Under the pieces are notes generated by a model. It was not told where the DNA came from and ran no database searches. It saw only the letters and a program-made list of their open reading frames with translations. A stretch of 64,000 bases of DNA. Source: Solibacillus sp. FSL R7-0668 (lineage in GTDB: Bacteria > Bacillota > Bacilli > Bacillales_A > Planococcaceae). The stretch's first letter is position 1. Each line of letters begins with the position of its first letter. Positions 33,938-45,821 of this stretch are shown piece by piece. Position numbers and translations under genes: made by a program. The stretch lies in contig NZ_JBBOUU010000001.1 of assembly GCF_038006205.1 (NCBI RefSeq), positions 1,118,001 through 1,182,000 on the forward strand. Reading direction: 5' to 3'.

Positions 33938-34822
33938 ATGAATCTTAGGAAAGTTAAAATGATCTTAATAGTCCTAATGACTTTACTTTTAAGCCTACAT
34001 ACATCAAAAACCTATGCTGATAAAAAAACCGAGAAAGAACGTTCGGTATGGATCTGGAATGCTAAGATACTTATAGATGAAAGCAAAGATCCACTAGCAT
34101 TTCTGGAAAGCAAGCAAATTAATAAAGTATATTTACAGGTTGACGCTACTATTTCAAAAAGTGTTTATCAAACCTTTATTGAAACAGCTCATTCAAAGGG
34201 AATACAGGTTGCTGCATTAGATGGAGATGCACATTGGACGACTAAGAGTGGTACGCGTCCGCTGGATCAATTTTTGAGTTGGCTAGAGCAATATCAAAAA
34301 GAGTCAACAGAAGTACAGCAATTTATAGGCATTCACTTAGATATTGAGCCTTATACGACACCTCTTTGGGATGAAAATCGGATGAAGGCTATAGAAAATT
34401 TTCAACAATTAGTACTTCAAGCGAAAGAGAAAGCACAACAATTAAACATACCGTTAGAATTGGATATTGCCTTTTGGTATGACGAGGTTAATTATCAAAC
34501 GAAATATGGGCGAGGCATTTTATCAAATTGGACGATTAATAATTCGGATAGCGTGACAATTATGGCCTATCGAGATTATTCGAATGGCATTATTAGAAGT
34601 GTCAAACATGAAATCGCCTACGCAAAACGTGTCGGAAAAAAAGTTGTTATAGGCGTTGAAACAATGAAATCAGCAGAAGGGGATCGTGTTAGTTTCTTTG
34701 AAGAAGGGGAAGAGTATTTAAATACGCACCTGAAAAATGTTCATAGTTATTATTCAAATCGACAAAGCTTTAATGGAATTGCCATTCATCATCTTGAAAG
34801 CTGGATGGAACTGAAGCCTTAA
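33938..34822 (+). CDS. Secreted putative glycoside hydrolase, TIM-barrel-like
   Basis: A 294-residue exported protein: signal peptide of about 28 residues ending TYA-DKK, no lipobox, then WIWNAKILIDESKDPLAFLE, VYLQVDATIS, a short GIQVAALDGDAHW strand, and GIHLDIEPYTTP, whose DxE arrangement after a beta strand looks like the catalytic end of a GH18-type or GH114-like barrel. VTIMAYRDYSNG, VVIGVETMKS and FNGIAIHHLESW fit further barrel strands. I do not recognise a named family. It lies just ahead of the exopolysaccharide locus and may trim the polymer; it probably has its own promoter, since 146 bp separate it from the next gene. Confidence 0.7.
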   Translation: MNLRKVKMILIVLMTLLLSLHTSKTYADKKTEKERSVWIWNAKILIDESKDPLAFLESKQINKVYLQVDATISKSVYQTFIETAHSKGIQVAALDGDAHWTTKSGTRPLDQFLSWLEQYQKESTEVQQFIGIHLDIEPYTTPLWDENRMKAIENFQQLVLQAKEKAQQLNIPLELDIAFWYDEVNYQTKYGRGILSNWTINNSDSVTIMAYRDYSNGIIRSVKHEIAYAKRVGKKVVIGVETMKSAEGDRVSFFEEGEEYLNTHLKNVHSYYSNRQSFNGIAIHHLESWMELKP

Positions 34823-34968
34823 ATGTCAATCATACAGTTAAACCAAATTTTTGTATTCAATCGATACGCTATAAAAAATATTTTCAAGAGTTGTTCAGAA
34901 TTTGTTTAACGGACTAGTATAAATTATTGCTAGTGATTGATATTCGAAATCATAAGGAGAATAAATAA

Positions 34969-37900
34969 ATGAAAAAAATAATAGCGGGAGTAATACTAAT
35001 TGCGGCTGTTTTATCTCCTTGGTGGCTCTATTTTTTAAAAACAGAAACACCACTCGATGTGCTTGTATTGGATGTAAGTTCTACAAGTGATGAGTTAAAA
35101 GCGAGACAGGGAATTTATGAGGCATTAGCATTTAATAAAGTGGTAAATCTTGAGGGTGCTATATACGAGGCGGATCGAGATTATTTTGGTGTCAAAGTCG
35201 TTGATGCACGTAAAACGATTGAGACAAAAGAATTACCACTGCGTATCGATACAGTGGATATCATTTATTTAGCTGATTTAGAGGGGATTCATGAGCGCGA
35301 TTTATCTTGGGGAGATGCCGCTTCGAATAAATTATTGTACAGTGGTCTTACTGGAGGTGCATGGCGTACGATTCAAAGTAGATTAGACCAAACTACGCCT
35401 AGCACACTCATTGTTGAATATAATAGTTTTACAGAGGCTACAGACGCGATTATTCAAGAACAGTTGGCTGCAGAGTTAGGTGTTGAACAAAGCGGTTATC
35501 GTGCCAAATATTTTGCTGATTTAAGCAAAGCCCCACTAACGACTCAAGAAAGCGGCAGTGGCTTAGTAATTCAACAAAAATCGACAGAAGAAACAGCTGT
35601 ATTAAAGAGTGCGCAGCCTGTTCAATTTCAAGTAACGAAGCAGGGGAAGCAATCCCTTCCTTTTCAAGAGTTCGAAAATTTCACAGGCTGGTTTGATTTA
35701 GCTGTGGCAACAGATGCAGAAACATTAGCAATCTATGAGCCAGCTATATCAGCGCAAGATCAAGCTCAGCTACAAGCATTGAACTTACCAGCTGCTTTTG
35801 CCGTGATTACGACAAATACACGACAGCATCATACGAATTATTATTTTGCGGGTAAATTTTCGTATCAGTCGAAGCAAGCGTTGTCAATACCGAAGTTTTA
35901 CGGCTATAAATGGTTACAGCAGCGGTTTGCTAAGGATGATGCATTTTATTGGAAAAATTACGAGCCGATGATGCAGCAAATCCTTAAGCATACATCACAC
36001 CGTGAAGCAAAGGAGCTTGCGGCGGTATCATTAGAGCCGGAAATTTATGAGTCATTATCCTATAATGCACGAATTAACGATCAAAAATATGAAGTTCTGC
36101 AAAATGGTGTATGGCAAGAAATCACGATTAAAGGAGTCAATATCGGGATGGCCAAACCAGGGGCATTCCCAGGGGAAGCAGCGATTACGAAAAGTGATTA
36201 TGCAGATTGGTTCAAGGCAATTGGTGAAATGGGCTCCAATGCAATTCGGGTGTATACCGTGCATCCGCCTGCTTTTTATGAGGCATTGCTTGAATATAAT
36301 ACAGCGCATGAACAGCCCCTATATTTATTTCACGGTGTTTGGTTAGATGAGGAGCCAGTGGAAGCAGCATTAGATGTCTACGGGGAGCCTACAGAAAACT
36401 TCCAGCAGGAAATACGACATATTGTTGATATTATTCATGGCGATGCGGTAATTGAGCCTCGACCTGGACATGCTTCAGGAACATATAAAGCGGACGTCTC
36501 GCCCTATATTATCGGCTGGATGATTGGTATTGAGTGGTACCCAGTGGCAGTAGAAAATGTCAATAAAACCTATAAAAATCAAGCGCAATTTGATGGGACC
36601 TATTTTTCTACAAAGGATGCACAGCCGTTTGAAATCTGGCTGGCACAACAAATGGAATATACAGCGAGCTACGAGGCACAAACGTATAACTGGATGCGGC
36701 CATTTAGCTTTACCAATTGGGTAACAACGGATTTATTAGAGCATCCCTATGAGCCAAGTGATCAGGAAGATTTAGTCTCGGTGAACCCGAATGTTATTTA
36801 TGAAAAGGGTGCCTTAGAAAAAGTAGGGCAATTTGCGAGCTATCATGTGTATCCATACTATCCAGACTTTTTGAATTACACGCCTGAATATGTGAACTAT
36901 ACCGATCATCGCGGTCAAAAAAATAACTATGCGGCCTATTTAAAGGATTTACATGCAGCCCATCGAATGCCAATTTTGATTTCGGAATTTGGTATCCCTG
37001 CGTCCCGTGGCTTAACGCATCGCAATCCATTTGGCTGGAATCAAGGCTTTATTTCTGAACGTGAACAAGGAGAAATACTCGTTCGTTTGTATGAAGATAT
37101 TATACATGAAGGCCTATTGGGAGGCTTAGTGTTTACTTGGCAGGATGAATGGTTTAAGCGGACGTGGAACACGATGGATTTAGATAATCCAGATGAGCGC
37201 CCATATTGGTCAAATGCTCAAACGAATGAGCAGCAATTTGGTGTGTTAAGCTTCGATACGTTAAAAATGAAGGTAGATGGGGATTCAACCGATTGGTACG
37301 GCATTACGCCATTTTATGAATCTGAAGAACTTTCGATGTATGTGGAGTCGGATGAGCGCTATTTATATATGAAGTTGGATGTTGAAAATACAAAGTTTAG
37401 TGACAATTATTACCCACTTATTTATATGAATACACTAGCAGCACAAGGTAATTCACGTTATCAAGGAATTCCATTATTAGCAGATTCCGAATTTGTCGTG
37501 ACGATTAAGGGAGAACAAAACGCGCGGGTGGAAGTAGATGCTTATTATGATATCTTCCAAAAAATGTACGGCGACCAATTGCAATTAGTGCCATTCGAAG
37601 GAACGAAGCAAAAAAATAGCAATCAGTTTAATCCAATCGATTATGCGCTCAATAAATCATTAACAATTCCAATTAGTAATATCGTTTTACCATTTGAAAA
37701 ATATGAAACAGGTATTTTACGACGAGGCAATGCCAATCCAAATAGTACAGAGTATGATTCATTAGCGGATTATGAAATCAACGAGCAGGAAGGCGTTATT
37801 GAAATACGAATACCTTGGTTATTACTAAATGTAACCGATCCGAGCCGATTGGAAGTACGATCCGATTTATATGCCAATGAACAGCTAGCAACAGAAATTA

Positions 37901-38088
37901 TCGACGGGATTGAGTTCGGTGCTATACTCGTGAAGGATCAGCAAATCATGGCAACGATCCCAGAGGAAGCACAGCAGCTCCAAACTTATAGCTGGGAGGG
38001 GTGGCGAATGCCTGATTATAAGGAGCGCCTAAAAGAATCGTATTATTTATTGCAGGAAAAGTTTTTAGAAGATGAAGTAAGGGAATAA
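34969..38088 (+). CDS. Large membrane-anchored protein: paralogous N-domain + GH-A-like glycosidase + CBM-like tail
   Basis: A 1039-residue exported protein held by an uncleaved N-terminal helix (about residues 5-23). Residues 26-350 are homologous over their whole length to the proteins at 38105 and 43057 (LDVLVLD, DIIYLADLEGIH, LIVEYNSF, YYFAGKF). Residues 380-740 resemble a clan GH-A barrel: IKGVNIGMAKPGAFPGE, NAIRVYTVHPPAFYEALL, a likely acid/base Glu522 in IIGWMIGIEWYP and nucleophile Glu673 in PILISEFGIPASRG. The residue before Glu522 is Ile, where Asn is usual in this clan. From about 760, MKVDGDSTDWYGITP resembles a CBM9/DOMON-type module. It probably cleaves or remodels the polymer made by the synthase at 41087. 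AAGGAG precedes the ATG. Confidence 0.75.
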   Translation: MKKIIAGVILIAAVLSPWWLYFLKTETPLDVLVLDVSSTSDELKARQGIYEALAFNKVVNLEGAIYEADRDYFGVKVVDARKTIETKELPLRIDTVDIIYLADLEGIHERDLSWGDAASNKLLYSGLTGGAWRTIQSRLDQTTPSTLIVEYNSFTEATDAIIQEQLAAELGVEQSGYRAKYFADLSKAPLTTQESGSGLVIQQKSTEETAVLKSAQPVQFQVTKQGKQSLPFQEFENFTGWFDLAVATDAETLAIYEPAISAQDQAQLQALNLPAAFAVITTNTRQHHTNYYFAGKFSYQSKQALSIPKFYGYKWLQQRFAKDDAFYWKNYEPMMQQILKHTSHREAKELAAVSLEPEIYESLSYNARINDQKYEVLQNGVWQEITIKGVNIGMAKPGAFPGEAAITKSDYADWFKAIGEMGSNAIRVYTVHPPAFYEALLEYNTAHEQPLYLFHGVWLDEEPVEAALDVYGEPTENFQQEIRHIVDIIHGDAVIEPRPGHASGTYKADVSPYIIGWMIGIEWYPVAVENVNKTYKNQAQFDGTYFSTKDAQPFEIWLAQQMEYTASYEAQTYNWMRPFSFTNWVTTDLLEHPYEPSDQEDLVSVNPNVIYEKGALEKVGQFASYHVYPYYPDFLNYTPEYVNYTDHRGQKNNYAAYLKDLHAAHRMPILISEFGIPASRGLTHRNPFGWNQGFISEREQGEILVRLYEDIIHEGLLGGLVFTWQDEWFKRTWNTMDLDNPDERPYWSNAQTNEQQFGVLSFDTLKMKVDGDSTDWYGITPFYESEELSMYVESDERYLYMKLDVENTKFSDNYYPLIYMNTLAAQGNSRYQGIPLLADSEFVVTIKGEQNARVEVDAYYDIFQKMYGDQLQLVPFEGTKQKNSNQFNPIDYALNKSLTIPISNIVLPFEKYETGILRRGNANPNSTEYDSLADYEINEQEGVIEIRIPWLLLNVTDPSRLEVRSDLYANEQLATEIIDGIEFGAILVKDQQIMATIPEEAQQLQTYSWEGWRMPDYKERLKESYYLLQEKFLEDEVRE

Positions 38089-38104
38089 TTAGGAGAGAAT
38101 GAAT

Positions 38105-39163
38105 ATGAAAAAATTGCTGATAGCCCTTCTCGTCACTAGTGTTGTTTTTTCACCACGCCTTTATTGGCAATGGAAAGAAAGTACGCCATTAGATGTATTA
38201 GTTATCGATAAAACCGTCCCGAATGAGGAATACCGGGAGCATCAAGGCTTGCTTTGGTTTTTAACGAATGAAAAAATTGTTAAATCAGATGGGCAGCTTT
38301 ATGATGGAAAGATAGATTATTATGGCTTTGATTCTTATATGCAGCAACCAATGGCAAATTATAAGCATTATGAAGCGATGGATGTCATTTATATTGCAGA
38401 TACTTATGGGGTGTACTCAGATGATTTAGAGGATTTTAGTAATGGCGACCGCTCTGAAAAAATTTATGGTGGCATGACGCTGCCAGAGTGGCAGGAAATT
38501 ATGAAATCCAAACAGCCGCACACAAAGTTAATTGCGGAATATAATTCATTTGCTACGCCAACAGAGGCAAATGTTCGGCAAGTAATGGAACAAGATTTAA
38601 ATGTTCAGTGGTCAGGCTGGACGGGGCGTTATTTTGAAGATTTAACGAGCGCTGAAATACCTGCCTGGCTCATTCGCAATTATGAAGCCCAGTATGAAAA
38701 ACAATGGACCTTTAAGCAGGGAGGTCTTGTATTTGTGAATACGTCGGATCAAGTAGTGATTATTGATGACAAGGAACTAGATGGGACGGTTTCATTTGAA
38801 TTGACACTAGCAGGACAAGAGCACTTGCCGGGAGTCAAAAATTCGGAATATCCTTATTGGTTTGATATCGTGACACCGATGAATGCGGCGGTTGTCTATG
38901 CACAATATGAATTAGCCGTAGCCGATTATGCGCAACAAGTGTTAGCACAGCACGGGATTCCACTTACCTTTCCAGCGGTAACAGCAGACGAACGTTCAAA
39001 TGTCTATTATCTTTCAGGCGATTTTGCTGATTATACAAAGGATAATTTGATGAAATGGCAAGGAAGTGAGCATTTAATGAAGCTTTTTTCAAACGAGCAA
39101 TCTGATTTTATGTGGTCGACCTATATTCCGTTATTGCAAAATATTATTACACCAAATAGGTAA
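38105..39163 (+). CDS. Membrane-anchored extracytoplasmic protein, paralogue 2
   Basis: A 352-residue protein with an N-terminal membrane anchor (LLIALLVTSVVFSPRLYW) and a single extracytoplasmic domain of about 320 residues. It is very similar to the protein at 43057 and more distantly to the N-terminal third of the protein at 34969. Shared blocks are PLDVLVIDKTVPNEEYREHQG, DVIYIADTYGVYSDDLE, KIYGGM, KLIAEYNSFATPT and SGDFADYT. I do not recognise a named family; the alternating strand pattern and DVIYIAD block recall GATase-like or ThuA-like folds, but that is a guess. The start at 38105 has AGGAG 9 nt upstream; 38099 is too close. It lies 10-17 bp after the GH gene, so the two form one operon. 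Confidence 0.75.
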   Translation: MKKLLIALLVTSVVFSPRLYWQWKESTPLDVLVIDKTVPNEEYREHQGLLWFLTNEKIVKSDGQLYDGKIDYYGFDSYMQQPMANYKHYEAMDVIYIADTYGVYSDDLEDFSNGDRSEKIYGGMTLPEWQEIMKSKQPHTKLIAEYNSFATPTEANVRQVMEQDLNVQWSGWTGRYFEDLTSAEIPAWLIRNYEAQYEKQWTFKQGGLVFVNTSDQVVIIDDKELDGTVSFELTLAGQEHLPGVKNSEYPYWFDIVTPMNAAVVYAQYELAVADYAQQVLAQHGIPLTFPAVTADERSNVYYLSGDFADYTKDNLMKWQGSEHLMKLFSNEQSDFMWSTYIPLLQNIITPNR

Positions 39164-39180
39164 AAGAAAGGGTGATTGGC

Positions 39181-40035
39181 ATGATAGATGTAGAGGTTCT
39201 TTATGAACAGAAAATTATTGAATATGCACAATTACAACAACTTTACAAATTACAACTTGCATATGTGATGCGTAAGAAAATTCACTTTTCAATTGTGCTT
39301 ATTGAGTATAAAGAGGAGTTCCCTATATCCTATCAACAATTTTATGATCAATTAAAAGGGAGATTGCGAGACTCAGATTTTGCCTATATGCATTCAGAAA
39401 AGCAATATATTGTGCTTTTATTGACCATTAGTAAAACGGCAGAGGCTCAATCTTTTATTCAACGAATTCAACATGTCTTTACCAAAGACAATATCCCGAT
39501 TGATTCTGTTATTTCAGAAGTGGCAAATGATGCACATTCGTTAGATGAGGTGTTAGCGATTAGCGAATCTGCATTATTGTATCAAGAGAATAAAGGACAG
39601 GCTCCAATTATTGTAAAGGATTTTTTAGCTAGATCGAAAGTGATTATTAAGGTAAGTATTATTGAAAATAACCGGATTACGCAGTCGATTTTCACGAATC
39701 TATTTCAACATCTGTCAATAGACAATGTGCAGCTAGATATCCAAACATTTAGTGATGGTTTGCAATTTATCGAATCGGATTGGTATCGCAGTGCGCATAG
39801 TCATATCGTAGTGTTGAATGATATTTTACCGAAAAAAACGGGCCTGGAAGTATTGGATTATTTGCGAGCTTTACCAAATGAGCAAAAGTATATTATTTTA
39901 TTTTGTTCGTCACGCGTGTCCGAGGATGCCCAGTTATATTGTTTCGAACATGGCGCGGATGCCTATATCGTGCGTCCATTTAATTTGAAAATTGTCGAAA
40001 AACAAATTAAAAATTATTTGAGAAGGTTGAATTAG
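39181..40035 (+). CDS. Degenerate GGDEF domain + pseudo-receiver; candidate c-di-GMP receptor
   Basis: A 284-residue cytoplasmic protein. Residues about 25-150 follow the GGDEF fold (HFSIVLIEY, then FYDQLKGRLRDSDFAYMHSE), but the active-site motif is replaced by SEKQY (residues 72-76) and the metal-binding Asp by Glu42. The inhibitory-site RxxD is kept as R63-D64-S65-D66, exactly five residues before SEKQY, as in true GGDEF proteins, so it probably binds c-di-GMP without making it. Residues 153-284 form a receiver domain with E162-N163-N164 for the acidic pair, N213 at the phosphoacceptor position (VVLNDILPKKTG) and R265 for the usual Lys, so it should not be phosphorylated. The start at 39181 has AAAGGG 8 nt upstream. 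It sits 2 bp before the HEAT-like gene. Confidence 0.78.
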   Translation: MIDVEVLYEQKIIEYAQLQQLYKLQLAYVMRKKIHFSIVLIEYKEEFPISYQQFYDQLKGRLRDSDFAYMHSEKQYIVLLLTISKTAEAQSFIQRIQHVFTKDNIPIDSVISEVANDAHSLDEVLAISESALLYQENKGQAPIIVKDFLARSKVIIKVSIIENNRITQSIFTNLFQHLSIDNVQLDIQTFSDGLQFIESDWYRSAHSHIVVLNDILPKKTGLEVLDYLRALPNEQKYIILFCSSRVSEDAQLYCFEHGADAYIVRPFNLKIVEKQIKNYLRRLN

Positions 40036-40037
40036 CG

Positions 40038-41081
40038 ATGATTACAAGTCAAATATTAAAAATATCAATCATCGCAATTGTCGTCTTGCTTGGGTTTGTT
40101 ACTATCCTCTTCTTTTATTTAGTATGGATGAACAGACGGCAGCAACGAAAAGAAAAAAGAATCACGCAATATTTCGAACAGCATGAAAAGGATTGGTACA
40201 ATTATTTAGTCAATCAGAGCCCTTTCATAAAACAAAAGGAACATAAAACGAATCTAGATGCAGTGGATAAGCTATTTGTCACCTATATGCTGACAATTAA
40301 TAATGAAGAAGTACGTAATCGCATTACCAACTATGCTGAACTGAATATGAAGCCGTATTATTTGAAGCAGCTACAGAGTAAGAGCTTGGTACAGCGCATC
40401 AATGTACTCCATCGTGCGCTCTTATGTAACTTTAGCTTTATTGTGCCGATCATCGAAAAGCAATTAAAAGCAGGTAAGGTTGAGTCCATCGAAGAATACT
40501 TGCTTTTATTGCAAATAATTTCAAAATATAATTCGAATTTATTTTTAGCACATATGTATCAGCCGCGTCTTGCTCTTCATGAGTACGAGTATAATGTGCT
40601 ATTAACGAAAGTTGATCCGACCTATATTGAGCAATTTCAAGACAACTTTGATGAATTGCCAATTGAATTACGCTTATCGCTGCTTACTTTTTTTAGCTTC
40701 AATGCTAACTTTGGGGATAATGATTTGCCATTTTTTGAGAGCTTACTCTCCTCTATTTATACAGAAATTCGAATTCGTGCGCTAAAGGATATTGCGTCGT
40801 TTGGGATGATTTCATCTTTGGAGCCTTACCGAGTATTTTTAAAATCAACGTATTGGGAAGAAAGGCTAATGCTCGCAAAAATTTTACCCTTTTCAAATGA
40901 TTCACAAGCATATGAATTACTGAAACAATTAATGATGGATAGGGAATGGACAGTACGTAGACAAGCCGCAGTATCACTTAAGTCGATGAAGCAGGGCCGC
41001 CGAATTTTACAAGAAATAATAGAAAAAAATGAAGATTTATTTGCTGCTGAGATGGCACAGGAAGTATTGAAAGTAGGCTGA
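40038..41081 (+). CDS. Membrane-anchored HEAT-repeat-like protein
   Basis: A 347-residue protein with one N-terminal transmembrane helix (residues about 8-30), a positively charged stretch RRQQRKEKR after it that keeps the body inside, and an all-helical body. Its end, IYTEIRIRALKDIASFGM, YWEERLMLAKILPFSND and REWTVRRQAAVSLKSM, shows HEAT-like repeats about 30 residues apart. Such proteins are scaffolds. Between the c-di-GMP-receptor candidate (2 bp upstream) and the synthase (5 bp downstream), it is likely to connect the two at the membrane. I know of no characterised counterpart. Confidence 0.72.
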   Translation: MITSQILKISIIAIVVLLGFVTILFFYLVWMNRRQQRKEKRITQYFEQHEKDWYNYLVNQSPFIKQKEHKTNLDAVDKLFVTYMLTINNEEVRNRITNYAELNMKPYYLKQLQSKSLVQRINVLHRALLCNFSFIVPIIEKQLKAGKVESIEEYLLLLQIISKYNSNLFLAHMYQPRLALHEYEYNVLLTKVDPTYIEQFQDNFDELPIELRLSLLTFFSFNANFGDNDLPFFESLLSSIYTEIRIRALKDIASFGMISSLEPYRVFLKSTYWEERLMLAKILPFSNDSQAYELLKQLMMDREWTVRRQAAVSLKSMKQGRRILQEIIEKNEDLFAAEMAQEVLKVG

Positions 41082-41086
41082 TCGGA

Positions 41087-42493
41087 ATGATGGATTTTTT
41101 ATTATATTGGCTCCATGAGATTTTTGGCGTATTTCTCATTTTTTATATGCTTTTAGTCATTGGGGTTTATACGCTCATGTTAATCTTTGCATTTACTTAT
41201 TTAAAGAAAACGCGTCGCTTAGACAAATATATTGAGAATACCGTGAATTTACAATATACCTATTCGAAACCTGTTTCCATTATTGTACCTGCCTATAATG
41301 AGGAAGTCGGGATTCTCAGTACAATCCATTCACTACTGACAATCGAATACCCCCAATTTGAAATCATTATCGTTAACGATGGCTCTAAAGATGCAACATT
41401 GCAACAGGTCATTGAAGCCTTTCAGATGGAGCAAGTTTTTCAGACGGTACGCCAGCAGCTTCAAACAGAAGAAATAAAGGCGATCTACCGTTCAAATATC
41501 CATCATAATATTGTGTTAATTGATAAAAATAATGGTGGCAAGGCTGATGCGCTCAATGCAGGTATTAATGTTTCGCAGTATCCTTATTTTTGCTCAATAG
41601 ATGGAGACTCCATTTTATCGGGAAAATCTCTATTACAAGTGATGAAACCGATCGTTGCCTCCAATGGTCATGTCATTGCAGCAGGTGGCAGTGTGCGTAT
41701 TGCTAATGGTTCCAATTTCCAATATGGTACATTTATGAATGCAGTCATGCCGAATAATCCACTTGTCATTATGCAGATTATTGAGTATTTACGTGCCTTT
41801 TACATGGGGCGAATTGCGTTAAGTCGTTTTAATTTATTGTTAATTGTATCGGGTGCCTTTAGTGTATTCTCGAAGCATTATGCGATAAAGGTCGGAGGAT
41901 ACAATCGGCAAACAATTGGCGAGGATATGGAGCTAATCGTTAGGCTACATCGCTATTTGCTGAAAAATAAAATTAACAAAGCGATTGAATATGTGCCTGA
42001 TCCCGTTTGCTGGACAGAGGCTCCAGATAATTTCAAAGATTTGCAAACGCAGCGTCGACGTTGGCATCAAGGACTGATTAGTAGTATTATGCTGAATCGG
42101 GGGATGCTATTTAATCCGAAATATAAGCAAATTGGAATGATTTCTGTTCCGTATTATGTATTTATCGAGCTTTTAGGACCGATTATTGAACTGATTGGGT
42201 ATATTTATATGATTATTTCATTTGCTGTTGGAAATGTGTATTGGGAATCTGCTATCATTTTACTGACACTGTTTCTAATCTACAGTACAGTTATTTCGAT
42301 GTTTGCAATTTTGCTGGAATCTTGGAGTATGCATACATATCCGCGTGCACGGGATACGTTAAAGCTCATGCTATACTCACTAACAGAGCTGTTTTGGTTC
42401 CGCCCGCTAACAACATGGTATCGAATTCAAGGCTTTTGGTATTATTTCCGTGGAAAAAACGACTGGGGAAAATTAAGTCGCAAAGGTTTATAG
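41087..42493 (+). CDS. Processive family-2 glycosyltransferase (polysaccharide synthase)
   Basis: A 468-residue membrane synthase of the BcsA/PgaC/HasA type that polymerises a sugar and pushes the chain through its own membrane pore. One or two N-terminal helices (8-38) precede the GT-A domain: PVSIIVPAYNEEVGILSTI, D98 in IIIVNDGSKD, D172-G-D174, GED at 278-280 and QRRRW at 322-326, all four synthase motifs intact; C-terminal helices follow at 350-410. No PilZ domain is present, so c-di-GMP control, if any, must come from a partner, for which the pseudo-GGDEF protein three genes upstream is the candidate. The product is unknown. A strong terminator follows. Confidence 0.85.
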   Translation: MMDFLLYWLHEIFGVFLIFYMLLVIGVYTLMLIFAFTYLKKTRRLDKYIENTVNLQYTYSKPVSIIVPAYNEEVGILSTIHSLLTIEYPQFEIIIVNDGSKDATLQQVIEAFQMEQVFQTVRQQLQTEEIKAIYRSNIHHNIVLIDKNNGGKADALNAGINVSQYPYFCSIDGDSILSGKSLLQVMKPIVASNGHVIAAGGSVRIANGSNFQYGTFMNAVMPNNPLVIMQIIEYLRAFYMGRIALSRFNLLLIVSGAFSVFSKHYAIKVGGYNRQTIGEDMELIVRLHRYLLKNKINKAIEYVPDPVCWTEAPDNFKDLQTQRRRWHQGLISSIMLNRGMLFNPKYKQIGMISVPYYVFIELLGPIIELIGYIYMIISFAVGNVYWESAIILLTLFLIYSTVISMFAILLESWSMHTYPRARDTLKLMLYSLTELFWFRPLTTWYRIQGFWYYFRGKNDWGKLSRKGL

Positions 42494-42510
42494 CGCTTGA
42501 AATAGATGAG

Positions 42511-42548
42511 GGCTGTTCAAAAAGTATATGCTTTTTGGATAGCCTTTT
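42511..42548 (+). terminator. Intrinsic terminator after the synthase gene
   Basis: A 14-bp stem with two G-U pairs (42511-42524 with 42531-42544), 6-nt loop and four T. Confidence 0.8.
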
Positions 42549-42549
42549 C

Positions 42550-42729
42550 TCATTGTGCGTAATCGCCAGTGTAATAAACGAGCGAACATGAATGCATCGC
42601 TTCAATTTCATCAATCATCGTGATGAAATACGTATTATCATCAACTTTCGAATTTTTACGGTCATTTTCGATTAAGCCTATACCTCTCTCGAATGGAAAA
42701 GGCAGCCCGCTTAGAATCCTCTTTCTCAC
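42550..42729 (-). CDS. Small protein of unknown function on the reverse strand (possible gene remnant)
   Basis: A 59-codon frame starting with GTG at 42729 and ending in TGA at 42550. The product starts MRKRILSGLPFPFERGIGLI and ends EIEAMHSCSLVYYTGDYAQ, a normal globular composition. GGGAGGG lies about 11 nt upstream on the reverse strand. The stretch is clearly less AT-rich than the flanking non-coding DNA, which supports coding. The frame stays open without a start for some 20 more codons upstream, so it could also be the surviving 3' end of a larger gene. No family recognised. Confidence 0.45.
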   Translation of the reverse strand: MRKRILSGLPFPFERGIGLIENDRKNSKVDDNTYFITMIDEIEAMHSCSLVYYTGDYAQ

Positions 42730-43056
42730 TCGAAGTAAATCCCTCCCTAAATGAAATGAATTTAGGTCTCATGGCTTATTTTTAATTTAGTGAGTAAAAT
42801 GCTTTTAAATTATTTAAATTTCTATTTTAAGTGTCTATACCTAAAATTTACACTTTAAAATTTAAAATATCATTGGATTAAAAAGTTTTATCTCATTTTA
42901 TAAATTTAGGACTTAAAGGCTGCTATTTATATGAAACGTTGAATATTTTTTGTTTTTAAGGTATTATTTACCTATAATTAATTTTATGAAAATATTACAA
43001 ATGAGTGATTTAATAGAGCGTTCACTAAGAAAAAATGCTTCTGGGGGGGTTATTAA
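42730..43056 (+). other. Very AT-rich intergenic region ahead of the second half of the exopolysaccharide locus
   Basis: About 330 bp of extremely AT-rich DNA. It contains an imperfect inverted repeat, TTTTAAGTGT near 42826 and ACACTTTAAAA near 42850, and a small AGTGA/TCACT hairpin about 50 bp before the next gene. A promoter for the gene at 43057 must lie here, but I cannot define boxes with confidence. Confidence 0.35.
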
Positions 43057-44133
43057 ATGAGTAAAAAGTATATTGTAGGATTGATTATTTTACTATTGCT
43101 AATTTTATCGCCGAGAATATATTGGCAGTTTAAAGAAAAGGTAGTACTGGATATTTTAGTTGTTGATAAAACAGTTCCAAATACACAGTATCGAGAGCAT
43201 AACGGACTGTTTTGGTTTTTAACGAATGAAAAAATCGTAAAACCGAATGGTGAATTGTATGATGTAGGAATCGATTACTATGGTTACGATCCATATGAAG
43301 GAAAAGCGATGGATACATATGTTTATGAAGAGAAAAAGGATGTCATTTATATTGCAGATACATACGGTGTTTATTCGGATGACCTCGAGACGGTTGTGGA
43401 AGGAGATCGCTCGGAAAAAATATATGGTGGAATGGACTTATTAGAATGGAACGCCATCTGGCAATCGAAGGGCTCAAATACAAAACTAATTGCTGAATAC
43501 AATTCCTTTGCATCGCCAACTGATGAACAAACACGCAAGGTTATGGGTGAAAACTTAAGTGTGGAATGGTCAGGCTGGTCGGGGAGATATTTCTCTGATT
43601 TCAATAATGATGAGGTGCCTCCATGGCTAATTGCCAATTATGAAGCGCAATACAATAAAAAATGGGATTTTGAGCAAGGTGGCCTAGCTTTTACGCACAC
43701 ATCTGATCAAATCATTGTTATTGATGAGGCAGAAATCACTTCGCCTGTATTATTTCAAATGACAGCGGATGGAGCAGGTGCATACCCGAATGTTTTAGAA
43801 ACAGAGTACTCTTATTGGTTTGATATTGTGAAGCCGCTAAATAATGCTCAGGTGCTTGCCCAATATAAATTAAGCCTGTCGGATAATGCAGAAAATGAGC
43901 TGGCTGTTGCAGGAATCCCTACTGTGATCCCGGCAGTCACTCACCATGACCAAAATAATACGTTTTATTTTTCGGGTGACTTTGCAGATTATACAAGAGG
44001 AAATTTGAAAAAATGGCAAGGCAGTGCAAGAGCAATGCGGTTATTTACAAATGATGAATCGGATTTTTTCTGGGGCTCCTATATCCCACTAATGGAACAA
44101 ATTTTTGCTGACATAAAAAATAACATGAGGTGA
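43057..44133 (+). CDS. Membrane-anchored extracytoplasmic protein, paralogue 3
   Basis: A 358-residue protein with an N-terminal membrane anchor (YIVGLIILLLLILSPRIYW) and the same extracytoplasmic domain as the proteins at 38105 and 34969. Identity to the 38105 product is high throughout, for example KTVPN.QYREH.GLFWFLTNE, DVIYIADTYGVYSDDLE, AEYNSFASPT and FSGDFADYTRGNL. The two are therefore recent paralogues. GGGGGGG lies 7 nt before the ATG. The function is unknown; the co-occurrence with a synthase suggests an extracytoplasmic part of the export or assembly machine. It is followed after 5 bp by the phosphatase-like gene. Confidence 0.75.
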   Translation: MSKKYIVGLIILLLLILSPRIYWQFKEKVVLDILVVDKTVPNTQYREHNGLFWFLTNEKIVKPNGELYDVGIDYYGYDPYEGKAMDTYVYEEKKDVIYIADTYGVYSDDLETVVEGDRSEKIYGGMDLLEWNAIWQSKGSNTKLIAEYNSFASPTDEQTRKVMGENLSVEWSGWSGRYFSDFNNDEVPPWLIANYEAQYNKKWDFEQGGLAFTHTSDQIIVIDEAEITSPVLFQMTADGAGAYPNVLETEYSYWFDIVKPLNNAQVLAQYKLSLSDNAENELAVAGIPTVIPAVTHHDQNNTFYFSGDFADYTRGNLKKWQGSARAMRLFTNDESDFFWGSYIPLMEQIFADIKNNMR

Positions 44134-44138
44134 TGAGG

Positions 44139-45821
44139 ATGAAAAATAAAAAGGCGATTATCAAATTTTTCATGTGGTTTCTAATGCTTAGCACATTAGG
44201 CGTTGGGGGAGGGATTTTCTTTTTACTTTTTGCTGTCGTGCCGATTGAAGAATGGTATGTGCAGCGTGGCTGGTCACAATTTAAAATCGATGGCGTAATG
44301 TCCTACTATGTAGTCGGTTGGGTTATATTCGGATTTATCATGTCATTTGTTTACTATTTCCTATGTTTGAAAAAAGAAAAATGGATTATTAGTAGCGTTT
44401 TTTGTATCGCTTCTATTTTACTATGTGTTGCAGGATTAAATTACTTTTTAAATACAGGCTCCTCGGTCGTACAGGCGTCGCAAGGTGATGTGGAGGTGGG
44501 CGAGCGCTTTACGTTTGGCCCCTATCCAGAAAAAGTGAATTTACAAGAGCTAAAGGATCAAGGCTATGATGGTGTGATTGCACTGTTAAGCACAACCTTG
44601 CCAATTGAAAAGCCATTATTAGATAAAGAGTTCAAAGCAGGGGAAGAAATTGGCATAGAAATATTATCGATGCCTATGCTTCCATGGGTTGGTGATAATA
44701 CAGAAACATTAAATAAAATTCGCGATTTAGTTGAACAGGATGATAAAAAATATTATGTGCATTGTTATTTAGGACGTCACCGGGTGGATGTTGTAAAGCA
44801 ATTGGTTAATGAAGCTAGTGGTGCAGCACATGAGCTTTTAGTGTTACAATCAACATCCTTTGAACGTGGACATGTGTATTATGATTCTGAAAATGAAGTC
44901 ATTATCGGACCATTTCCAACAGATGAAGAATGGTTTACACGTATCCGACGAGGCGAGGTGAAGGAGGTTATTTCATTACTAGGTACAGGGCATAGCTTCC
45001 GAGAGCAGGGCGAGCAAGTATCAAAAGAAATGAATATGATTTATACAGAAATGAGCCTACCACAAAATTACGAGCTCGCTGATTTGCAAAAAATAATCGA
45101 TTACATAAAAACTAGAGAGCATAAAGTATTTGTCTATGATTTTAATAGGAGCACAGCCTTACAGGAGTTAGAGGCGTTGTACTCATATGGAAAAACGATT
45201 CATCCACTAGCCAAAGGGACGAAAAATTCCAATCAAGCATTGTCAGTGGGGGCGAAATATATGGTAGGTCCAGCGCTTAACGAACAGCAAAAGGAACGCT
45301 TGAAAGCAATTGGGATTGAACAATTCGTAGATGTACAAGGTGATTTAGCACAGTCCTACCAACAAATCAAGGCAATAATTGCACAAGAAAAGCTAACATA
45401 TATTTCAACCTTGGCTGAAAATAAAGAAGCTGTCTATAAAATTGTTCACGGAATGGTGTATGGCTATGAGGATTATTTTTCAGCACAGGATGCAGGTTTA
45501 TTGGACGGTCAAGCATATGTTGACGTGCGTAATTTAACGTATGGTCCAATTATAACAGAAGAGCAAATGCTAGAATTTATTATTCCTAATGGCATCAAAA
45601 AAGTCCTTTATTTGCATGTTGCTGCAACAACTTCTGAACAAGAGCTACAGCAAATCAAAATGTTATTTGAAAAGTATAAAGTCGATTTGGCGGTGTATCC
45701 GATTGGGGAAGGGTATGAGAAAACGATTATTCCTATAATTAATGCAGAGCAAGGAAGTAACTATTTAATGATGGATGAAGCGGTATTGCCGTCTGTGATG
45801 GACTTGCTAGATAAATATTGA
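44139..45821 (+). CDS. Membrane protein with four tandem dual-specificity-phosphatase-like repeats
   Basis: A 560-residue protein. Three transmembrane helices (about 11-34, 56-77 and 82-103) with Lys-rich ends at the N-terminus and between helices 2 and 3 predict a cytoplasmic N-terminus and an extracytoplasmic C-terminal 450 residues. That part contains four repeats, each starting with a Gly-Pro motif: FGPYP (126), IGPFP (256), VGPAL (376) and YGPII (468). Repeat 1 has a complete DSP/PTP P-loop, H208-C209-YLGRH-R215, with Asp186 as possible general acid. The corresponding positions in repeats 2-4 are VYDFNRSTA, YISTLAENK and AVYPIGEGY, lacking the Cys or the Arg. The start at 44139 has GAGGTG 6 nt upstream. 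The role is unknown. Confidence 0.75.
   Translation: MKNKKAIIKFFMWFLMLSTLGVGGGIFFLLFAVVPIEEWYVQRGWSQFKIDGVMSYYVVGWVIFGFIMSFVYYFLCLKKEKWIISSVFCIASILLCVAGLNYFLNTGSSVVQASQGDVEVGERFTFGPYPEKVNLQELKDQGYDGVIALLSTTLPIEKPLLDKEFKAGEEIGIEILSMPMLPWVGDNTETLNKIRDLVEQDDKKYYVHCYLGRHRVDVVKQLVNEASGAAHELLVLQSTSFERGHVYYDSENEVIIGPFPTDEEWFTRIRRGEVKEVISLLGTGHSFREQGEQVSKEMNMIYTEMSLPQNYELADLQKIIDYIKTREHKVFVYDFNRSTALQELEALYSYGKTIHPLAKGTKNSNQALSVGAKYMVGPALNEQQKERLKAIGIEQFVDVQGDLAQSYQQIKAIIAQEKLTYISTLAENKEAVYKIVHGMVYGYEDYFSAQDAGLLDGQAYVDVRNLTYGPIITEEQMLEFIIPNGIKKVLYLHVAATTSEQELQQIKMLFEKYKVDLAVYPIGEGYEKTIIPIINAEQGSNYLMMDEAVLPSVMDLLDKY

Follow-up and report, generated by a model that had tools for sequence, protein, structure and literature searches.

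The eight genes of the locus were all confirmed at the positions originally proposed for them within the window, that is, the whole stretch of 64,000 nucleotides of DNA that was analyzed (Table 1). When the eight proteins were compared with Pfam, matches over the cut-offs were obtained only for the GT2, the HEAT repeats and the receiver domain, and no sugar-nucleotide gene was recognized by Pfam among the eight. The true start of the GGDEF/REC gene is likely the ATG at 39181. A search of the 64 kb window with Rfam gave zero matches at gathering scores, so control by a c-di-GMP riboswitch is not supported. A total of 19 GGDEF matches were found in the genome from which the window derives, so c-di-GMP signalling is likely to occur in this organism.

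Table 1. Genes of the locus, with positions in the window.
Position	Strand	Product and features	Supporting matches
33938..34822	+	Accessory secreted TIM-barrel-like putative glycosidase; N-terminal signal/anchor	
34969..38088	+	EX domain, clan GH-A barrel and C-terminal beta-rich domain, fused; membrane anchored, extracytoplasmic	
38099..39163	+	EXA: solo EX protein with a GATase1-like fold and no Cys; extracytoplasmic, anchored in the membrane	
39172..40035	+	Degenerate GGDEF (I-site retained, active site lost) and pseudo-receiver; putative c-di-GMP receptor	
40038..41081	+	Membrane-anchored cytoplasmic HEAT-repeat protein	Pfam HEAT_2 3.8e-10; TM 11-29
41087..42493	+	Processive GT2 synthase	Pfam PF00535 3e-23; motifs, TM segments
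43057..44133	+	EXB: second solo EX protein; 57% identity to EXA	
44130..45821	+	Accessory membrane protein with extracytoplasmic DSP/PTP-like repeats; HCx5R kept in first repeat	

To study the conservation of the locus, genomes were scanned with a 17-row alignment of the fused glycosidase, and at least 588 confirmed relatives were obtained. The 80 loci named in this work are the best 80 of them, and so the closest to the query; they span 30 named genera, two of the loci being without genus. With fixed score thresholds, GT2 was found in 64 of these loci, HEAT in 59, GGDEF/REC in 53, and all three in 49, counts to be taken as lower bounds because some contigs are short (e.g., L077, 8.7 kb). The strict order GGDEF/REC-HEAT-GT2-glycosidase, with the genes adjacent and on one strand, was observed in 34/80 loci, and 107 of the 145 core junctions on one strand lay between −10 and +5 bp. 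Concerning the 16 loci without GT2 nearby, HEAT occurred elsewhere in each of the 16 genomes (E 2.4e-64 or better), and in the five of those HEAT neighbourhoods that were read it adjoined GT2 in all five, GGDEF/REC being also present in four.

Among 101 relatives, where HEAT and the glycosidase were each scored as present at 200 bits or more, 25 contained both, five only HEAT, five only the glycosidase and 66 neither (Fisher p 4.5e-14, kinship not corrected for). In the five glycosidase-only genomes (L129-L133), the glycosidase gene adjoins a GT2 and a HEAT of divergent sequence. Three of the HEAT-only genomes have a lone HEAT gene (G001, G006 and G008), and the other two GGDEF/REC-HEAT-GT2, with the glycosidase not in the stretch read (G005 and G040). 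In a sample of the phylum, 24/398 genomes gave a match at E 1e-30; of 20 stretches read from 19 genomes, nine contained HEAT and GT2, two GT2 without detected HEAT, and nine neither HEAT nor a strong GT2, so the glycosidase and EX are not exclusive to this system. Nor is EX universal, since no EX domain was detected with the GH-A barrel of several genomes (G004, G009, G013 and L129-L133). The operon core is therefore old. Its unit consists of GGDEF/REC-HEAT-GT2 together with a GH-A glycosidase, in most cases fused to EX, and/or an EX protein, with EXB, the DSP-like protein and the 33938 glycosidase as accessories. The eight genes had been predicted as one co-occurring set; the core does co-occur widely (the 49/80 loci above), but the eight genes are not the unit. 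A spore-specific function as the sole role was also considered and was rejected, given that the operon is also found in Kurthia, Planococcus and Caryophanon, which we take to be non-sporulating genera.

Two side observations concern individual loci. The GT2 reads as two ORFs in L122 (G005), L033 (G042) and L117, which suggests a decayed synthase or a sequencing error. A complete Bacillales-like operon was also found in a record labelled as a Mogibacterium MAG (L113), a case in which a binning error is likely.

In the case of the regulator encoded at 39172, hhalign matched its N-terminal half to GGDEF domains encoded in the same genome (probability 93%, E 3.4e-7) as well as to the intact GGDEF of the Metabacillus version (89.6%, E 1.9e-6), both comparisons being made with 12 of the 16 homolog rows (two Kurthia rows, L024 and L032 were left out). 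The GG[DE]EF active site is absent from the window protein and from 43/43 short forms, whereas 9/14 long forms carry the motif and four more a near form. The phosphoacceptor of the receiver is Asn instead of Asp in the window protein, and the Asp occurs in 3/43 short forms versus 14/14 long ones. Judged by these motifs, the window protein would be neither a diguanylate cyclase nor a functional response regulator. The degenerate GGDEF and pseudo-receiver of the original prediction are thus borne out, with active-site motif and phosphoacceptor both lost.

The I-site behaves differently from the active site. Its triad, R66, D69 and R98, is complete in the window protein, in 36 of the 41 short forms long enough to cover it (two truncated sequences were not counted) and in 11/14 long forms, the five short exceptions being four from Kurthia (RxxN) and one from Rossellomorea (PxxS). 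All three residues are within the top seven of the 147 columns of the GGDEF half, R66 and R98 with 97.6% and D69 with 87.8% conservation, the two arginines being level with R34 and the start Met as the most conserved. In an alignment with PleD, weak at 3.2 bits, R66/D69 fall on the RAID motif and R98 on the AERI arginine, which we take to be I-site residues of PleD. The spacing of the three residues equals that of R363, D366 and R395 of Bacillus cereus PelD, a proven I-site triad according to the available parts of its report (PMC7112168). Both this protein and PssE (PMC4125290) are, as far as the available text of the two papers goes, precedents for the binding of c-di-GMP through the I-site.

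In Metabacillus and Domibacillus, the same gene encodes a REC-GGDEF-REC protein (GGDEF E 6.5e-43 and 1.6e-41, respectively), with an N-terminal Hpt match slightly below the Pfam cut-off, and in both a hybrid histidine kinase gene is found in the same stretch. From sequence, the long form of other genera is apparently an intact cyclase. Hybrid histidine kinases were seen near the long-form regulator in L115 and L080 (Pfam: CHASE3 or GAF/PAS/HAMP) and in L164 (by eye). When the long and short forms, assigned by protein length to 60 of the 75 rows, were mapped on a GT2 tree, parsimony required at least four changes between them. The N-terminal halves of the outgroup itself, however, also lack the GGDEF motif, so that the short forms may, but need not, be cyclases decayed to receptors. 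The link to c-di-GMP had been drawn by analogy, and it is now strengthened, at the level of sequence, by the retained I-site and by the apparently intact cyclase versions of the gene.

The GGDEF/REC protein could also be a pure protein-protein adaptor, with I-site residues of structural value, c-di-GMP unbound, and the input coming from another protein or from HEAT. This would agree with the RxxN of the Kurthia forms, with the receiver of the window protein being also dead, and with the 11/64 GT2 loci, mostly of Planococcus and kin and two of them on short contigs, in which no GGDEF/REC gene was detected at the thresholds used and where, consequently, another input may exist. However, such an adaptor is unlikely, because the I-site positions remained among the most conserved while the rest of the domain drifted, and because the same slot is filled by apparently intact cyclases.

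The three EX proteins (the fused one, EXA and EXB) are paralogs. Their fold comparison gave about equal scores for GH42 and GATase1-like domains. Cys is absent from 31/36 EX sequences, among them all three encoded in the window, and the other five contain one Cys each; lacking the catalytic Cys, EX does not classify as a class I glutamine amidotransferase. Compared to the carbohydrate deacetylase Agd3, EX is without a deacetylase domain of its own. EX may be an analogue of BcsB, which was not among the 50 fold matches listed for EX, and EXA is proposed as an export partner. EXA, EXB, the 33938 glycosidase and the fused protein reached the cut-off of no Pfam or NCBIfam family, and a sequence search of the PDB with the last of these, alone and as a profile, gave no matches. 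The best fold match of the fused glycosidase, with 17% identity, was GH157, with which it has the clan GH-A barrel in common and from which it differs by the fusion to EX and to a C-terminal domain. GH157 enzymes are, we assume, endo-beta-1,3-glucanases, and the PDB titles of the GH157 matches refer to laminari-oligosaccharide complexes. This likeness is a weak hint that the polymer might be a beta-glucan, and the fused GH-A protein is a putative polymer-trimming glycosidase.

Concerning the accessory proteins, a profile of the 33938 glycosidase (12 homologs) matched 10yv_A, a solved 'putative GH97' of C. fimi, at 6.8e-21, and homologs of this glycosidase occurred within the fetched stretch in 9/80 named loci. 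A DSP-like gene follows GT2-EX in L024, L136 and L165. The HCx5R signature is present in 6/6 DSP-like sequences, while Pfam phosphatase matches were weak (E 0.003-0.008, each in one or two of the six) and the profile search of the PDB gave a best E of 0.15, mostly to DSP3/VHR and outside the HCx5R repeat. It is unusual that the signature of a Cys-based phosphatase occurs, as in 44130-45821, in a domain predicted outside the membrane; the repeats after the first look degenerate by eye.

The locus was originally read as a likely insertion between rsmE and mtaB, into a conserved block. The operon does lie between these genes, but they are adjacent in only 2/16 genomes of the genus (G003 and G010). 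Considering the 16 genomes, this interval contains the operon in six, one of them incomplete, a Pel operon in three and neither in seven. The operon is there in the window genome, G002, G004, G009 and G013, while in G005 it lacks the glycosidase and its GT2 is split into two ORFs; an insertion unique to the window genome was, therefore, rejected. In G001 and G006, the interval contains two unrelated genes followed by a lone HEAT gene, and G008 has such a lone HEAT gene plus the Pel operon, which is also found in G012 and G015. G007, G011 and G014 have other content, G014 carrying the operon elsewhere. The Pel operon (L145 in G012, L146 in G015, L148 in G008), of the Gram-positive kind, occupies the same site on the opposite strand in 3/16 congeners and includes a PelG-CotH fusion, DUF3492/GT1, DUF2194, epimerase-GAF, DUF4956 and VTC. 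Of the seven Pel genes of G015, identified by Pfam, tblastn found 7/7 in G012 and 6/7 in G008; PelG is present in 6/16 genomes of the genus. Operons for matrix polymers are therefore exchanged at this site, in support of the functional class assigned to the window locus.

Other features of the interval are worth recording. A second HEAT gene follows the GT2 in G004, G009 and G013, and the lone HEAT of G001, G006 and G008 looks like what remains of an otherwise lost operon. Genes for an FAD amine-oxidase-like protein and a bacterial PH-domain protein, not present in the window, follow rsmE in L148 (G008) and L142 (G007), and ORFs of similar size to those two genes occur in L121-L123 and L125-L127.

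The GT2 contains the processive motif set (DxD, TED/GED, QxxRW) together with TM segments, and it is the sole full copy of its family in the window genome. Its best NCBIfam model was PgaC_IcaA, with 125 bits against a cut-off of 422.3, so it is not assigned as a PgaC/IcaA equivalog; with 56.4 bits against 699.1 for the CelA model, it is not assigned as a cellulose synthase either. The product could conceivably be a cell-bound glycan, or the GT2 could decorate a wall polymer, a lipid or the S-layer, with EX and GH remodelling the glycan. The N-terminal hydrophobic anchors or signals on the extracytoplasmic parts, and the lack of a sugar-nucleotide gene among the eight, would be compatible with this. 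Against it, the processive motif set is complete, the nearest NCBIfam model is a polymer synthase and the chromosomal site exchanges with the Pel operon. It seems reasonable to regard this alternative as quite improbable.

Concerning membership of known operon types, Pfam at E up to 1 gave no match in the eight proteins for PilZ, GH8, DUF2334 or a polysaccharide deacetylase of the PgaB/IcaB type, the latter being absent also with NCBIfam, and Pfam gave none for PelG or a PelF-type GT. BcsB (PF03170) had zero matches in the whole window genome, while the controls B. subtilis and E. coli do match, so the locus is not of the yda/pss/bcs type; the PelG of the window genome sits elsewhere (G000:C1:1968457, at 1.97 Mb). 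The idea of a diverged yda/pss, PNAG, cellulose or Pel operon, suggested by the shared logic of GT2 plus degenerate GGDEF and by PgaC_IcaA being the best NCBIfam match, is very hard to sustain in view of the cut-offs not reached, the genome without BcsB, the distant PelG and the missing deacetylase, GH8 and PilZ. The locus fits none of these known complete operon types, as had been anticipated, and no description of such an operon was found in the open-access literature searched (PMC).

Of the features of synthase-dependent, c-di-GMP-controlled EPS systems, the processive GT2 is present, the I-site receptor is recognized at the level of its residues only, and the extracytoplasmic partner and the hydrolase only by predicted fold, anchor and neighbourhood. 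In our judgement, the locus is probably a Bacillales operon for the synthase-dependent secretion of an exopolysaccharide, under post-translational control by c-di-GMP, with the receptor acting through HEAT. We infer that the GT2 would polymerise a nucleotide sugar and export the chain. The GGDEF/REC protein would bind c-di-GMP at the retained I-site and would switch the synthase on via the membrane-anchored HEAT protein as a scaffold. Outside the membrane, the EX proteins would accompany the chain, and the one of them that carries the GH-A enzyme would trim it.

More tentatively, the operon might represent a new class of c-di-GMP gate, in which a HEAT scaffold in the membrane would transmit the action of GGDEF-REC. 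The protein of some genera would be an active two-component cyclase with the I-site maybe as the read-out, i.e., maker and sensor in one, while in others, that of the window included, it would be a sensor only, and the operon would be interchangeable with Pel at one site.

Should the interpretation be correct, many mostly environmental Bacillales would carry a polymer secretion system undescribed in the open literature searched, with a matrix polymer yet to find and a HEAT-based coupling of c-di-GMP to the synthase. A single operon slot would also show a natural gradation, with apparent cyclases at one end and bare receptors at the other. Since congeners exchange the operon with Pel at one site, the choice of matrix polymer can be studied by comparing them.

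The locus can be compared with four described systems. E. coli NfrBA-YbcH includes a c-di-GMP-controlled GT2 with a dedicated local cyclase but, according to the available part of its report (PMC8669469), c-di-GMP is received there by an MshEN domain that forms one protein with the GT, and an outer-membrane secretion part is present. The Gram-positive pelDEADAFG operon has in common with the window a degenerate GGDEF receptor with equal I-site spacing, but the window locus contains no match to PelG, PelF-type GT or deacetylase. In the case of ydaJKLMN of B. subtilis, we take YdaM to be a GT2, YdaK a degenerate GGDEF protein, YdaN BcsB-like, YdaL a DUF2334 protein and YdaJ a GH8. It is an EPS operon in which, in the available text (PMC13274460), YdaJ is a putative glycosyl hydrolase and YdaK a c-di-GMP receptor, features that have putative counterparts in the window locus; the window differs in having no BcsB, GH8 or DUF2334 and in having HEAT, REC, EX and GH-A parts. 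Listeria pssA-E is similar in its GT2, which is IcaA-like, and in PssE, a receptor with an I-site and an inactive GGDEF (PMC4125290, available sections); its PssD is an ortholog of BcsB, which is absent from the window genome, and those sections mention no receiver domain in PssE, while the window receptor has a pseudo-receiver. The logic of yda and pss with different parts, synthase-dependent and c-di-GMP-linked, is what had been predicted for this locus, a prediction that the analysis supports.
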